Positions 22,063 through 62,703 of a DNA stretch of 64,000 nucleotides are shown piece after piece; the stretch's first letter is position 1; each line of letters starts with the position of its first letter. Origin of the DNA: Bacteroides coprosuis DSM 18011. GTDB taxonomy: Bacteria; Bacteroidota; Bacteroidia; Bacteroidales; Bacteroidaceae. Under the pieces are notes generated by a model, which saw nothing but the letters and a program-made list of their open reading frames with translations, was not told where the DNA came from and did not search any database. The stretch spans positions 2,720,780 through 2,784,779 of the forward strand of contig CM001167.1 in the NCBI GenBank assembly GCA_000212915.1, given 5' to 3'. The position numbers and the translations under genes were made by a program.

Positions 22063-22809
22063 GATTAATTCTTTATTTATTTAACATTATATTTTACTCT
22101 CATATTTGAGTGGTACTCCTATAGCAATTACATATTTAAAATTACACTAATATGCTATCATTATTTACAAAAATAGCCATAATTTTACAATTATCATTAT
22201 TTTTAGTCATAAAATGTTACTAATACATTCTTAATAACCAACAACAAACTCACTTATAAAATCCTAACAACTAATTAGATAAGCTTAAAGGAGCAAAATA
22301 CTTCTTTGAAACAGCAAAGGCTATATTTAATAAACGCCAAAAAGAGTAAACCTTATATGCTTATAAATAAGAACATTAGCTACTATAAGAATCATTAATA
22401 TAAAATCAAGACTTAAACTTAAAACATTCTAAATATAAAAATGTTTAACAGCCAATTTATATTCTTCTTTAGAATCTATGTTTTTTTTAATAAAAGGCAA
22501 GTGAAAGCTCAACAATTGTTACAATTTAGTATTTATATGAGCTTAATTAATTATTTATCAGCTATAGTATAGAAAGAACAAAACTAAATGTTCTTTTTAT
22601 TCTAAAATAGATATAGGTGCACTACATCTATTCTAGCCTTAGCAATTACTTATCAGTTTTAGTATCAAAACACCAAACAGATGCTATAGTAACAGATTAT
22701 AGAAGTAAAAAAGAGGATAAAAGAGATTTACTGAGAATGAATATATGCGTTTTTATCGCTAAAAATCTCCATAAATCAGTACTACTTCAAGAAGTAAAAA
22801 ACTCACTCT
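22063..22809. other. AT-rich intergenic stretch
   Basis: Nearly 750 bp with no convincing gene. An open frame at 22617-22811 starts with GTG, has no visible ribosome binding site and an unstructured composition, so I do not call it. Its end touches the first 22-bp repeat site. Confidence 0.5.
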
Positions 22810-22862
22810 GACACCGACATGAAGATATCATGTCGGTGTCATCGCATCATCATGTCGGTGTC
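22810..22862. repeat. 22-bp-period repeat family, site 1 (three copies, first one inverted)
   Basis: Three copies of the 13-bp core TCATGTCGGTGTC or its complement GACACCGACATGA: 22810-22822 inverted, 22828-22840 direct and 22850-22862 direct. The first two form a perfect 13-bp inverted repeat around the five bases AGATA, and the last two are exactly 22 bp apart. The same core recurs near 48.7 and 62.6 kb. Confidence 0.9.
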
Positions 22863-23096
22863 ATGATAAGAACATAAAAGTCACCTAATCTATATCAAGA
22901 GACTTTTTTTGTCATAAAAGCCTCTTAATTAGACTGAAACTTACTGCATGAGATCTAAAAGAATAAAAAGAGAATAAAGAACCCATAATAGCTCTTCCTT
23001 TCACTTTTAGATTCCCAAAAAGTATTCTGCCGAAATGGGTAAATTGAATATTTATAAATTAACACCCATTTTCTGTTCGCGAAATGTTTAAATAAA

Positions 23097-23134: not shown

Positions 23135-23205
23135 AGGTACCTGGCAGATTCGAACTGCCGTGGATGGTTTTGCAGACCACTGCCTAGCCACTCGGCCAAG
23201 GTACC
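23135..23205 (-). tRNA. tRNA-Cys (anticodon GCA), copy 2
   Basis: A 71-nt cloverleaf on the minus strand: acceptor stem GGTACCT/AGGTACC with discriminator U, D-stem GCC/GGC, anticodon stem GTGGT/ACCAT with loop CTGCAAA (anticodon GCA), and T-arm GGCAG-TTCGAAT-CTGCC. It is identical in sequence to the copy at 23255-23325 and shares its transcript, with a 49-bp spacer between them. Confidence 0.97.
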
Positions 23206-23254
23206 GATAACAAAAGTTTACCTTAAAAAGAGCTTATACCTTGCTCTAAAAACG

Positions 23255-23325
23255 AGGTACCTGGCAGATTCGAACTGCCGTGGATGGTTTTGCAGACCAC
23301 TGCCTAGCCACTCGGCCAAGGTACC
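23255..23325 (-). tRNA. tRNA-Cys (anticodon GCA), copy 1
   Basis: Same 71-nt sequence and folding as the copy at 23135-23205, with U discriminator and GCA anticodon. Transcribed first of the pair from a -7 box at 23344-23351. Confidence 0.97.
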
Positions 23326-27789: not shown

Positions 27790-29847
27790 ATGTATAATAT
27801 AATCCAATTGAACGACAAAAACTTGTCAGAACTCAAAGAAATAGCTAAAGAACTTGGAATTAAAAGAACTGATTCTTTCAAAAAAGAAGAGTTGGTTTAT
27901 AGAATTCTTGACGAACAAGCAATTGCTGGTGCTTCAAAAAAAGTAGAGGCCGAAAAGCAAAAAGATGATCGTAACGACGACAAAAAGAAACGTACAAGAA
28001 TCACTGTAAAAAAAGAGAATAAAGACAAGGTTATTTCTGCCAACAAAAACGGTGAAACTTCTAGACCAGAAGGAGAAGATTCTACTGTAAACAAACCTAC
28101 ATCTACTCCAAAAGAAAAAAACACAGCTACTGCCGAAAAGAAAGCAGAAGTTAAGAAAGGTGCTGAAGCCCCTAAAAAGGAAACTGAAGCTCCTAAAAAA
28201 CGTAAGCCTGGGCGCCCTCGTAAAACTGCAGCAGAAAAAGCTAAAGAAGCCGAAGCAAAAGCAAAAAAAGCAGCACCTGCAAGTGCAAATAAAGATAAAG
28301 TAGAAACAAAAGAAACTACTCCATCTAAGAAGCAAGAAGAAAAGAAAGAGGTTAAAGAGGTAAAACCTGTAACTGCTCCCGAAAAGAAAGAGGTTAAAAA
28401 GATAGAACCAGCTTCTAAAAAAGAAGAAAAGAAAGAGGAAAAAGTAGAAACAAAGAAAACAGAGGTAGATCCTAATGAAGACTTTATTCCTATCGAAGAT
28501 ATTGCTAGAAAACCAGCCTCAAAAATGGAAACAATTATTTCAACTCCTGAAATAACACCTCCTGCTACAAATCAAAAAAATACTCCTAAGCAAAAGTCTA
28601 ATCCTTCAGATAATAAGCAACGTCAATCCAATAAAGATAATCGTAACGATAAAAGAAACGATAATAGGAATGACAATAGAAACGACAACCGTAATGATAA
28701 TCGCAATGATAATAAACCATACGAGTTTGACGATATTTTAAAGGGTTCTGGAGTGTTAGAAACCATGCAGGATGGATATGGGTTCCTTCGTTCATCAGAT
28801 TACAACTACCTATCCTCACCTGATGATATTTATGTATCGCAGTCGCAGATCAAACTATTTGGACTACGCACAGGAGATGTGGTTGAAGGAGTTATTCGTC
28901 CACCCAAAGAAGGTGAAAAATATTTTCCACTTGTGAAAGTAGAGATGATTAATGGAAGAGAACCAGCTTTTGTACGCGATCGTATCAGCTTTGATCATCT
29001 GACTCCATTATTCCCTGATGAAAAATTCCAACTTTGCAAAGGAGACTCTTCAGATTCAATGTCTGCTCGTGTAGTAGACTTATTCTCTCCTATCGGAAAA
29101 GGACAACGTGCCTTAATTGTGGCACAACCTAAGACTGGTAAAACCATTTTACTTAAAAATATAGCTAATGCTATAGCTGCAAATCATCCCGAAGCTTATA
29201 TGATTATGCTTCTTATTGACGAACGTCCAGAAGAGGTAACAGATATGGCTCGAAGTGTAAATGCAGAAGTTATTGCTTCTACTTTTGATGAACCAGCAGA
29301 CCGCCATGTTAAAATTGCAGGTATCGTTTTAGAAAAAGCAAAACGCATGGTAGAATGTGGTCACGATGTAATAATCTTCTTAGACTCAATTACAAGACTA
29401 GCTAGAGCATACAACACTGTAGCTCCTGCTTCAGGAAAAGTATTATCTGGAGGTGTAGATGCCAATGCGCTACACAAACCTAAACGCTTCTTTGGTGCAG
29501 CTCGTAATATTGAAAATGGAGGTTCTTTAACTATTATAGCAACAGCTCTTATTGATACAGGTTCAAAAATGGATGAAGTCATTTTTGAAGAATTTAAAGG
29601 TACTGGTAATATGGAACTTCAATTAGATAGAAATTTATCTAACAAACGTATTTATCCAGCCGTTAATATTGTTGCTTCAAGTACTCGTAGAGAAGATCTT
29701 CTTCAAGACAAAACAACTCTTGATCGTATGTGGATTTTACGTAAGTATTTATCGGATATGAATCCTCTTGAAGCAATAGAATTTGTTAAAAAGCAAATGG
29801 AAAACACTAGAAGTAATGAAGAGTTTTTAATGAGCATGAATAGCTAA
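27790..29847 (+). CDS. rho: transcription termination factor Rho with large Lys-rich insertion
   Basis: A 685-residue hexameric RNA helicase that ends transcription. Residues 1-45 are the Rho N-terminal helical domain ([13 protein letters not shown]). About residues 46-308 are a low-complexity, Lys/Glu/Ala/Pro-rich insertion ending with six RNDN/RNDK tandem repeats (285-308). The cold-shock-type RNA-binding domain ([15 protein letters not shown]) starts near 315. The ATPase core has Walker A PKTGKT near 447-452, [12 protein letters not shown] and the Q/R-loop region [11 protein letters not shown]. coli Rho is 419 residues, so the insertion accounts for the extra length; such insertions are known in Bacteroidetes. 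A long leader suggests autoregulation. Confidence 0.96.
28642..28713 (+). repeat. in-frame 12-bp repeat (six units) inside rho
   Basis: Six consecutive units encode RNDK then RNDN five times. Arg, Asn and Asp codons vary between units (CGT, AGA, AGG, CGC), so the array is conserved as protein more than as DNA. Confidence 0.85.
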
Positions 29848-38027: not shown

Positions 38028-38101
38028 AGCCTCTTGTCGGATTCGAACCAACGACCCCGAGATTACAAATCACGTGCTCTGGCCAACTGAGCTAAAGAGG
38101 C
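38028..38101 (-). tRNA. tRNA-Thr (anticodon TGT)
   Basis: A 74-nt cloverleaf on the minus strand: acceptor GCCTCTT/AAGAGGC, D-arm AGCTCAGTTGGCCAGAGC, anticodon loop TTTGTAA (anticodon TGT), T-arm with GTTCGAATC. It follows the SRP RNA by four bases, so both probably come from one transcript. Confidence 0.95.
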
Positions 38102-38105
38102 GGGT

Positions 38106-38201
38106 GGGTAAGCTTACTATATCGCGCCGCTACAACCTATTACCTTTGCTGCGATCAAGCCCTGGAGGATTCACAGGGAGCTGGCCGTATAGGACTTACC
38201 C
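38106..38201 (-). ncRNA. ffs: signal recognition particle RNA (4.5S type)
   Basis: About 96 nt on the minus strand. The ends pair (GGGTAAG with CTTACCC), giving a single long hairpin. The internal sequences TCCTCCAGGGC and CGCAGCAAAGGTA, facing each other across the apical loop, resemble the conserved domain IV that binds Ffh. A promoter lies just upstream (38214-38243) and tRNA-Thr follows. The loop sequence (TTGAT) is not a standard GGAA tetraloop, so a covariance-model check is desirable. Confidence 0.75.
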
Positions 38202-38213
38202 GTAATTGCATTG

Positions 38214-47108: not shown

Positions 47109-48506
47109 ATGATAAATCAAGATACAATATGCGCAATAGCGACAGCACAAGGTGGAGCCATAGGTACCATCCGAGTGTCTGGAAAGGATGCTATTACAAT
47201 TACAGAAAAAATATTTCGTCCATTTAAAAAGGATAAAATATTGCATGAGCAACCTGCATATACTCTAACTTTCGGAAAAATAATAGACCATGAAGAAGTT
47301 ATAGATGAAGTACTCATCAGCCTTTTTAAAGCTCCTCATTCTTTTACAGGAGAAAACTCTGTTGAGATAACATGTCATGGATCAACCTATATTTTACAAA
47401 AGGTAATGGAGTTACTTATTAAAAATGGTTGTCGAACAGCCCAACCTGGAGAGTACACGCAAAGAGCCTTCCTTAATGGAAAGATGGACTTAAGCCAAGC
47501 TGAAGCTGTAGCAGACCTTATAGCTTCTACTTCGGCTGCAACCCACCGACTAGCGATGAGCCAAATGCGTGGGGGTTTTAGTAAGGAACTAGCAGAGCTT
47601 CGCAACCAATTGCTTCATATCACTTCAATGATTGAATTAGAACTAGACTTTAGTGAAGAGGATGTAGAGTTTGCGAATAGAGATCAACTAAAAGCTTTGG
47701 CAGATAAAATAGAACAAGTAATCTCTAAATTAACCAACTCCTTTAGTGTAGGTAATGCCATAAAGAATGGTGTTCCTGTAGCTATTATTGGGGAAACCAA
47801 TGCTGGGAAATCTACACTTCTGAATGCTCTACTCAATGAAGATAAAGCTATTGTTAGTAATATCCACGGCACAACCAGAGATGTCATAGAAGATACTATG
47901 AATATTGGAGGAATAACATTCCGCTTCATTGATACAGCAGGTATAAGAGAGACTCATGACACTATTGAGAGTCTAGGAATCGAAAGAACTTTCCAAAAAC
48001 TAGATCAAGCAGAAATTGTATTATGGGTAATTGATGCTCCTACTGCTACAGAACAAATACAACAACTAGCAGAAAAGATAGTTCCTAGAGCACAAAGCAA
48101 ACAATTAATACTTGTATTCAACAAATCTGAGTTAATCAACGAAAGTGAAAGAAAAGGCTTAGAAGCTCTAGCTCAAACCCACTACCCTAGCCTAACTTCT
48201 ATATTTATTTCTGCAAAAGAGAAAGAAGGAGTTGAACAATTAGAAAAGTTGCTTACAAATTCAGCTAACTTACCTACTGTAACACAAAATGACGTGATAG
48301 TAACTAATATGCGTCACTACGAAGCTCTAACAAAGGCTCTAGAAGCGATACACCGTGTTCAAGACGGCTTAGAGATGCAAATCAGTGGAGACTTCCTTTC
48401 ACAAGACATTCGTGAATGTATATTCCACCTCAATGACATAGCAGGTGAAGTAACCAACGACATGGTACTTCAAAATATCTTTAAGAATTTTTGCATTGGG
48501 AAGTAA
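47109..48506 (+). CDS. mnmE: tRNA modification GTPase MnmE
   Basis: A 465-residue GTPase that, with MnmG, makes the 5-carboxymethylaminomethyl modification of U34 in several tRNAs. The N-terminal folate-binding domain has TICAIATAQGGAIGTIRVSG and GEYTQRAFLNGKMDLSQAEAVADLI near 117. The G domain has G1 GETNAGKSTLLNALL at about 226-240, GTTRDVIED (G2) and DTAGIRET (G3). The C-terminal Cys motif CIGK closes the protein. Length is normal. It has its own promoter, and a hairpin lies 78 bp downstream. Confidence 0.97.
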   Translation: MINQDTICAIATAQGGAIGTIRVSGKDAITITEKIFRPFKKDKILHEQPAYTLTFGKIIDHEEVIDEVLISLFKAPHSFTGENSVEITCHGSTYILQKVMELLIKNGCRTAQPGEYTQRAFLNGKMDLSQAEAVADLIASTSAATHRLAMSQMRGGFSKELAELRNQLLHITSMIELELDFSEEDVEFANRDQLKALADKIEQVISKLTNSFSVGNAIKNGVPVAIIGETNAGKSTLLNALLNEDKAIVSNIHGTTRDVIEDTMNIGGITFRFIDTAGIRETHDTIESLGIERTFQKLDQAEIVLWVIDAPTATEQIQQLAEKIVPRAQSKQLILVFNKSELINESERKGLEALAQTHYPSLTSIFISAKEKEGVEQLEKLLTNSANLPTVTQNDVIVTNMRHYEALTKALEAIHRVQDGLEMQISGDFLSQDIRECIFHLNDIAGEVTNDMVLQNIFKNFCIGK

Positions 48507-48583: not shown

Positions 48584-48619
48584 AAGGAGAAATATTCAGA
48601 TAACTGATTGTTTCTCCTT
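48584..48619 (+). terminator. terminator after mnmE
   Basis: Stem AAGGAGAAA (48584-48592) with TTTCTCCTT (48611-48619), 18-base loop, then TTTTT. Confidence 0.7.
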
Positions 48620-48689
48620 TTTTTATGAGAAAAGAGTTTTTAGTTTTAAAACTCTCCTTATTCAATAAATTTTACAGAAGAGTACACAA

Positions 48690-48790
48690 ATAGATCGGTG
48701 TCATCGTATCATCATGTCGGTGTCATCGTATCGTCATGTCGGTGTCATCGCATCATCATGTCGGTGTCATCGCATCATCATGTTGGTGTC
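48690..48790. repeat. 22-bp tandem repeat family, site 2 (five units)
   Basis: Five cores of the type TCATGTCGGTGTC end at 48702, 48724, 48746, 48768 and 48790, an exact 22-bp period. The first core is degenerate (ATCGGTGTC) and the last has one change (TGTTGGTGTC). The nine bases between cores are also similar here (ATCGTATCA, ATCGTATCG, ATCGCATCA). No reading frame makes a sensible protein. Confidence 0.93.
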
Positions 48791-49034
48791 AAAACGTATC
48801 TGTAAAACCTCGAATTGAGTATTATAGAGGTAGTAAATGACGAGTTTACCTCACTTGTAAAGATAGTTTGTAGCTCTATTTCTTGTTCTCAGCTAAAAGA
48901 ATAGATTGAATTAAAAAAATTAATATAAGAGAGCTCTTTTAAAGATGAATTGTTGATTGTAAATTTACCAATTGAATGACATAAAGTGTTCTGTAAAATG
49001 CTTTTGTTATATCCAGATAGTAAAATACTAAATT
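48791..49034. other. intergenic DNA after the repeat array
   Basis: AT-rich; no gene or RNA recognised before the 48-aa reading frame. Confidence 0.4.
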
Positions 49035-60456: not shown

Positions 60457-60583
60457 ATATCATTTGGTTTTAATCCTCTCAGGGAGCCATAAGATACAAG
60501 CATCTAATCCAGATTGATAAGCTAAATAGACAAGAATTATATCCCGTTTCTTAAATCCCCCGAAACAGTAGATTGTATTTTTA
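60457..60583. other. expression platform and leader of the corrinoid operon
   Basis: Sequence between the riboswitch aptamer and the btuG start codon. No separate gene. It should contain the part that hides or exposes the ribosome-binding site, but I cannot define its pairing by eye. Confidence 0.4.
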
Positions 60584-60756
60584 GGCAGGTCTTCTGACTC
60601 GCTTCCTTTCTAACTGCCCTTCCCATCATCTACCGACAGTGGATATTGTAGTATTTATTAGAAAGTTATAAAAGCTTACAGCAGTGGGTCTGTTCAGGAT
60701 TTTCACCTGATTCCCTTTTCACTTCTTTGGATAAAGTACTATCCTAGAAGCACCTA
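60584..60756 (-). promoter_or_regulatory. cobalamin riboswitch
   Basis: On the minus strand this leader has the class hallmarks in order: GGTGCTT at the start, AAAAGGGAATCAGGTGAA with AATCCTGA, ACAGACCCACTGCTGTAA, the CACTG / GGGAAGG core, and the final AGCGAGTCAGAAGACCTGCC box. It lies about 125 bp before btuG, where it should reduce expression of btuG-btuB and the PKD lipoprotein when cobalamin is plentiful. A weak -7-like box (TATCTTCA) is at 60782-60789. Confidence 0.96.
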
Positions 60757-60928
60757 AAAACTAGATTATTTATTTTGAATGTGAAGATAATAATTTTTTA
60801 ATAACCTCTATAAATTTATCGCGTTAAAATTTAATTTTAATTAATATTTTAAAATTATTCTATACTTCATATTATAAGAACTAAAGATTTATAGAGTGAA
60901 TCTCTTTCTCGCAAATATCTTAAACCCC

Positions 60929-62336: not shown

Positions 62337-62703
62337 AATTTCAGTGTTAATCTGTCAATAATTTGAGTTGGGGTAAAATAATCTCATCTAATAAAAGACG
62401 AAATCACTTCGTTTTATAAGTAATAATGAATGGTAATCTTAATTTGTTTAATAATAAAACTTTTTAATCAAAATATTAGACAAATTCTAAAATCAATGCG
62501 TAAACCACAGCATTTACCAGTAAAATTCCTATACAGAAGAGAAACTTCTGACACCGACATGACAATGCGATGACACCGACATGATGATTGCATGACACCG
62601 ACATGTCATTCCTTTGCTCTTGAGCAAATAATACCTTTTATTATATATATAGCTAATTATCAAATACTTTTAAGCCCTATTATTCCAACTAAAGTACATT
62701 TAG
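62337..62703. other. intergenic stretch holding repeat site 3
   Basis: No gene; AT-rich leader of mgtE (62337-62549), the repeat array (62550-62607) and about 95 bp of plain AT-rich DNA to the thrC terminator. Confidence 0.5.
62550..62607. repeat. 22-bp tandem repeat family, site 3 (three units)
   Basis: Core GACACCGACATG starts at 62550, 62572 and 62594, an exact 22-bp period. The nine-base spacers differ (CAATGCGAT after the first core, TGATTGCAT after the second), unlike the more uniform spacers of site 2. The strand of the core is opposite to sites 1 (last two copies) and 2. Confidence 0.92.

Follow-up and report, generated by a model that had tools for sequence, protein, structure and literature searches.

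Bacteroidetes are a major component of the gut flora, and to our knowledge no sequence-specific, genome-wide chromosome organiser is known from them. Several dispersed sites and repeats described elsewhere invite comparison. matS occurs as single sites, SlmA belongs to the TetR family, DNA uptake sequences (DUS) are single short words, and a 22-bp period is typical of plasmid iterons. The matS consensus, GTGAC(A/G)N(T/C)GTCAC, is repeated 23 times and only in Ter, and SlmA sites have their outer four bases in common with matS and are absent from Ter (PMC3116907). REPs are palindromes of 20-40 bp tagged GTAG or CGTC, which are intergenic, prefer gene 3' ends and favour convergent and tandem gene pairs; some REP-bearing genomes are without RAYT (PMC3733652). 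BrickBuilt of Porphyromonas gingivalis is an intergenic element of 23-nt tandem repeats, with 19 copies, 1 to 22.8 repeats, and leader and tail segments (PMC4596501), and it carries IS5-like terminal repeats. Lastly, the DUS dialects of the Neisseriaceae are a case in which related species use one plan in different spellings (PMC3630211).

The DNA analysed here, called the window, is a stretch of 64,000 nucleotides (positions 2720780-2784779) of the genome of Bacteroides coprosuis PC139T (DSM 18011), which is a single contig of 2,991,798 bases. An initial annotation of the window had described a 22-bp tandem array of a repeated 13-bp core, with further sites near 22810 and 62550 and no copy inside a gene. 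Indeed, we found five units sharing one 22-bp register at 48693-48791 (array 1) and two more arrays at 22809-22863 (array 2) and 62549-62603 (array 3), all three of them intergenic. Array 1 consists of three exact cores, one core with a single mismatch (TCATGTTGGTGTC) and one partial unit (GATCGGTGTCA, 48693-48703). At up to two mismatches the window holds 10 copies of the core, where shuffles lead one to expect 0.41 and the largest shuffle gave 3; together with the partial unit, these account for the total of 11 counted originally. The repeated core and its period were borne out, but copies also occur inverted (array 2 reads -++), and the actual unit is not the 13-bp core but an 11-bp imperfect dyad, TGTC-GGT-GTCA, with the 22-bp spacing kept between centres. 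The arrays and the neighbourhood of array 1 are laid out as follows:

47109..48506, + strand: mnmE, upstream neighbour of array 1 (ORF call, relatives)
48584..48626, + strand: mnmE hairpin resembling a terminator (AAGGAGAAA ... TTTCTCCTT, with a T-run), located between this gene and array 1 (read from the sequence)
48693..48703, + strand: array 1, unit 1, partial GATCGGTGTCA (sequence; in register)
48715..48725, + strand: array 1, unit 2, dyad TGTCGGTGTCA, centre 48720 (sequence, copy count)
48737..48747, + strand: array 1, unit 3, centre 48742 (sequence, copy count)
48759..48769, + strand: array 1, unit 4, centre 48764 (sequence, copy count)
48781..48791, + strand: array 1, unit 5 (TGTTGGTGTCA), centre 48786 (sequence, copy count)
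22809..22819, - strand: array 2, unit 1, inverted, centre 22814
22831..22841, + strand: array 2, unit 2, centre 22836
22853..22863, + strand: array 2, unit 3, centre 22858
62549..62559, - strand: array 3, unit 1, centre 62554
62571..62581, - strand: array 3, unit 2, centre 62576
62593..62603, - strand: array 3, unit 3, centre 62598

The mnmE hairpin has a long loop and was therefore missed by our simple terminator scan, and it fits the general pattern of a hairpin before the array that is described below. Array 2 is found on the 3' side of a pair of tRNA genes (23135-23325, - strand).

Counting the core over the complete genome had been named beforehand as a test, and it gave 349 copies of the 13-mer CATGTCGGTGTCA at up to one mismatch, versus 2 for the reversed control, and not three sites only. 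The window carries 3 of about 150 arrays in the chromosome, and array 1, initially taken for the main site, is just one of these, the largest seen (11 units) lying elsewhere. Start offsets between neighbouring copies are 22 bp (++ and --), 19 bp (-+) or 25 bp (+-), with a centre-to-centre distance of 22 bp in each case; the unequal offsets of opposite copies are resolved because the unit is an imperfect dyad with constant 22-bp centres. Core units less than 60 bp apart are separated by 22 bp (114 pairs) or 44 bp (5 pairs) and by no other distance in any orientation, as counted over 1.664 Mb (56% of the genome) with the 11-unit array left out. At 22 bp, the neighbour orientations were -+ in 38 pairs, -- in 37, ++ in 35 and +- in 4, giving 72 same-orientation versus 42 inverted neighbours, and as a rule the direction switches no more than once within an array, the units facing outward from there. 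Variant dyads (TGACTAAGTCA, TGACCTAGTCA, TATCAGGGTTA) prolong the arrays at just two offsets, +22 (on 69 of 196 array sides) and +44 (on 18), over a mean baseline of 1.3 per offset. Arrays have three units (29 arrays) or four (51), with few exceptions, one of them the array with 11. Twelve isolated single matches, mostly single-mismatch words within genes, are due to chance. Information content is about 1.5-2.4 bits at dyad positions and mostly below 0.5 in the spacers: the sites are kept, the intervening sequence is not.

The largest array seen, at chromosome positions 2251896-2252116, has 11 same-orientation units with uniform spacers; it is flanked by an XRE-like gene and a WYL_2 gene and adjoins a polysaccharide locus. 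The XRE-like gene was considered as the binder and rejected, as its homologue in B. propionicifaciens has no array beside it and no homologue was found in the sister species G001. Two arrays, at 2391676-2391750 and 1887144-1887190, are built of variant (TGACTAGGTCA-type) units only, the latter with one 21-bp step; they are possibly relics of an older spelling.

With respect to genes, 84 arrays were placed in 1.6 Mb by simple ORF calls: an array is present in 34 of the 102 convergent gaps, in 43 of the 347 tandem ones and in 7 of the 166 divergent ones. In tandem gaps the array is closer to the upstream stop in 37 of 43 cases, and by our likewise simple scan a terminator-like hairpin precedes the array 38 times in 82 but follows it only 8 times in 82. 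Arrays tend toward silent gaps between transcription units, which speaks against their being promoter operators or RNA elements. An operator array had been among the readings offered at the outset; arrays avoid divergent promoters and sit past terminators, which leaves ordinary promoter operators unsupported. Structured RNAs fit no better, as no Rfam family matched at the arrays, and arrays tend to sit past terminator-like hairpins. The broader proposal of a phased, intergenic, genome-wide family resembling binding sites is supported by genome count, phase and location.

Along the chromosome, the distance between arrays is about 16-22 kb and more even than gene layout explains. The spacing CV was 0.453 for 0-0.8 Mb and 0.653 for 1.5-2.3 Mb, compared with 0.889 and 0.948 in a simple control in which equal numbers of arrays were placed in real gaps matched for class and length (P<0.0002 and P=0.0016, respectively). 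Distances of less than 6 kb between arrays were found once against 7.6 expected in one segment, and 4 times against 14.6 expected in the other. Without the arrays in small predicted ORFs, the effect was weaker (P values of 0.016 and 0.2), and the even-spacing result covers B. coprosuis only, over 1.6 Mb. Forward copies are present in each 250-kb bin of the genome, by a hand count from the listing, and the GC skew switches sign near 0.4 and 1.9 Mb, both regions containing arrays.

We also turned to relatives, a check that the initial annotation had proposed, and two sister species have 22-bp arrays in spellings of their own. Those of G001, detected via a loose pattern of two phased dyads, generally consist of exactly three units that bear the core TGACTAGGNCA and have different spacers, and are intergenic without convergent bias (6 divergent, 5 convergent). 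In B. propionicifaciens DSM 19291, whose contig 1 carries the mnmE locus of NZ_AQWS01000001.1, three-unit arrays with the core CGAGTAAGTCG/CGACTAGGTCG occur at the 22-bp step only: a matrix scan gave 22 sequence windows above threshold at this step versus 0-2 at steps of 20, 21, 23 and 24, using a matrix trained on some of its own matches, eight arrays being new. The first 145 kb of its contig 1 held no convincing array. Judged by their sequences, the three species follow one common plan in three spellings inside one genus-level group. In the wider search, the B. coprosuis core was not found as a repeat in 40 relatives, one exact two-unit word had no match in genome contigs, and a literature search by sequence returned unrelated papers only. 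Among 250 family genomes, the three-unit pattern was not seen as a dispersed family outside the three-species group, in a scan that would overlook arrays built of very dissimilar half-sites. In its loose form, the three-unit pattern had hits in five family genomes; outside B. coprosuis and G001, these amounted to 8 places across G166, G167 and G273, those in G167 and G273 resembling unrelated tandem repeats, and a few genomes also gave hits with the controls.

Only 1 of 13 syntenic gaps retains an array between species, about the chance level for occupied gaps. This sole kept gap lies upstream of recJ, where all three species have an array (144741-145358 in B. coprosuis), with the same preceding thioesterase gene in B. 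coprosuis and B. propionicifaciens. In B. propionicifaciens (segment L255:9425-10325), an integrase-like frame is found directly downstream of mnmE, the place of array 1 in B. coprosuis.

Like matS, the units are dispersed chromosomal palindromes of similar shape (here TGAC-NNN-GTCA) with a spacing of tens of kb. They differ in being imperfect 11-bp dyads instead of a single 13-bp palindromic site, in forming phased clusters of three to four over the whole chromosome and in having species dialects; moreover, MatP (PF06303) was found in none of three genomes, while the control was positive in E. coli. SlmA and Noc sites are likewise palindromes dispersed across much of the chromosome, but here arrays are not excluded around 1.9 Mb, where the skew switches, and the units are phased in clusters. 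As with DUS, the B. coprosuis group spells a common plan differently by species, although its units occur only in phased groups.

The best explanation would be that the arrays are clustered sites of one putative sequence-specific, dimeric DNA-binding protein, whose likeliest role would lie in chromosome architecture, and we give this reading about an even chance. A register independent of orientation is expected for a symmetric binder, and together with the fixed small unit number, the near two-turn spacing and the weak spacers it points to side-by-side dimers of one protein. Each 11-bp dyad (some 14 bp if the preferred flank is included, CATGTCGGTGTCAt) would bind one dimer; three or four dimers, 22 bp or about two turns apart, would share nearly one helix face, and adjacent dimers may build one cooperative nucleoprotein cluster. 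About 150 such clusters would mark gaps between transcription units, roughly each 16-22 kb, and could anchor or bridge the DNA or bound its loops, in the manner of matS/MatP or SlmA/Noc sites but on the scale of the whole chromosome. The even distribution and the silent location suggest a structural role over control of particular genes. Because positions turn over between species, the position of a cluster would be dispensable; its internal phase and unit number would be kept, and the recognised sequence would shift by species into "dialects". We are more tentative about a whole-chromosome organiser of a Bacteroides lineage, that is, a protein which on phased clusters of three to four dyads, spaced almost regularly by about 20 kb in gaps free of transcription, would set loop or domain boundaries and co-evolve with its approximately 150 sites. 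Several observations count against the architectural reading, namely the low retention of arrays in syntenic gaps, the respelling of some 150 sites together, which would be hard for an essential host protein, and the lack of convergent bias in G001 and of a convincing array in the first 145 kb of B. propionicifaciens. It is also weakened by the fact that REP repeats prefer gene 3' ends too, and by the failure of the candidate binders (MatP being absent, and the HTH homologue being without an array).

Turnover and dialects are accounted for more easily by a mobile repeat resembling REPs, REPINs or MITEs. A transposase would copy such short elements, the 3' ends of genes would be the main places where they are tolerated, each species would have a family of its own, and even spacing would arise through target immunity or through selection against recombination between neighbours. 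Like REPs, BIMEs and REPINs, the arrays are species-specific, high in copy number, intergenic, of mixed orientation and inclined to gene 3' ends (PMC3733652); the preference for convergent and tandem gaps is shared by B. coprosuis, though not by G001. Besides the loss of position in all but 1 of 13 syntenic gaps, such a repeat would suit the finding that some unit orders turn up again at unrelated loci (B-C-A-A, and A- A+ A+ in 13 cases). Yet every mark of mobility that we sought was lacking. The flanks hold no conserved sequence outside the units and no terminal inverted repeats or target duplications, the flank comparison equalling the permuted control, and we therefore rejected the tips of a transposon or MITE, an origin that the initial annotation had itself raised. 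RAYT (Y1 transposase, PF01797) was found in 0 of three genomes, with the control positive in 5 of 14. Nor do nearly invariant dyads with weakly conserved spacers, a unit number fixed at three to four and an exact phase independent of orientation sit well with mobility, and the units are not hairpin units or pairs, same-orientation neighbours outnumbering inverted ones (72 versus 42). BrickBuilt is also a Bacteroidales intergenic element built of short tandem repeats, but its leader, tail, terminal repeats and range of 1-22.8 repeats were not seen in the B. coprosuis arrays. On balance, we consider a mobile repeat, the chief rival reading, unlikely.

A protein on three or four sites might instead insulate convergent units from each other, or act as a roadblock from both directions, and thereby back up terminators. 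The excess in convergent (34 of 102) over divergent gaps (7 of 166), the position just past terminator-like hairpins (38 of 82 versus 8 of 82) and the symmetric organisation would all suit a two-way block, and such a role at convergent genes need not conflict with the architectural reading. As an explanation in its own right it seems to us unlikely, given that two thirds of the convergent gaps are without an array, that the spacing is more even than gene layout predicts, that G001 arrays have no convergent bias and that terminators are often present already. It is scarcely credible that the arrays are iterons, or what is left of the replication or partition sites of a plasmid that integrated many times over. 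The period is typical of iterons, a likeness remarked on initially, and one array has its 11 same-orientation units by small HTH genes; however, the arrays are chromosome-wide, mixed in orientation and of three to four units, exact-pattern searches gave no array match in plasmid or phage records and no real viral match, viral contigs included, and the homologous HTH/WYL_2 locus of B. propionicifaciens is without one. It is also very improbable that the units are uptake sequences, i.e., species marks for a competence receptor: their density is far below that of DUS in Neisseria, isolated units are not beyond chance, and the locking of units in phased groups of three to four would be needless for uptake. 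What speaks for such marks is chromosome-wide dispersal and the resemblance of dialects on a conserved plan to those of the Neisseriaceae (PMC3630211).

With sites so regularly spaced and phased, domain organisation in bacterial chromosomes becomes directly testable, and the dialects pose an evolutionary puzzle, the respelling of about 150 sites within one genus. If the arrays are a mobile repeat instead, that repeat would be new as well, given its constant unit number, its lack of ends and of a known transposase, and its even spacing. Elsewhere in the window, we observed a degenerate 12/24/36-bp tandem repeat (GATAATAGAAAC) at 28636-28714, a tRNA gene directly abutting a Bacteroidales small SRP RNA gene at 38028-38208 (- strand) and, by Rfam, a cobalamin riboswitch at 60567-60772 (- strand).
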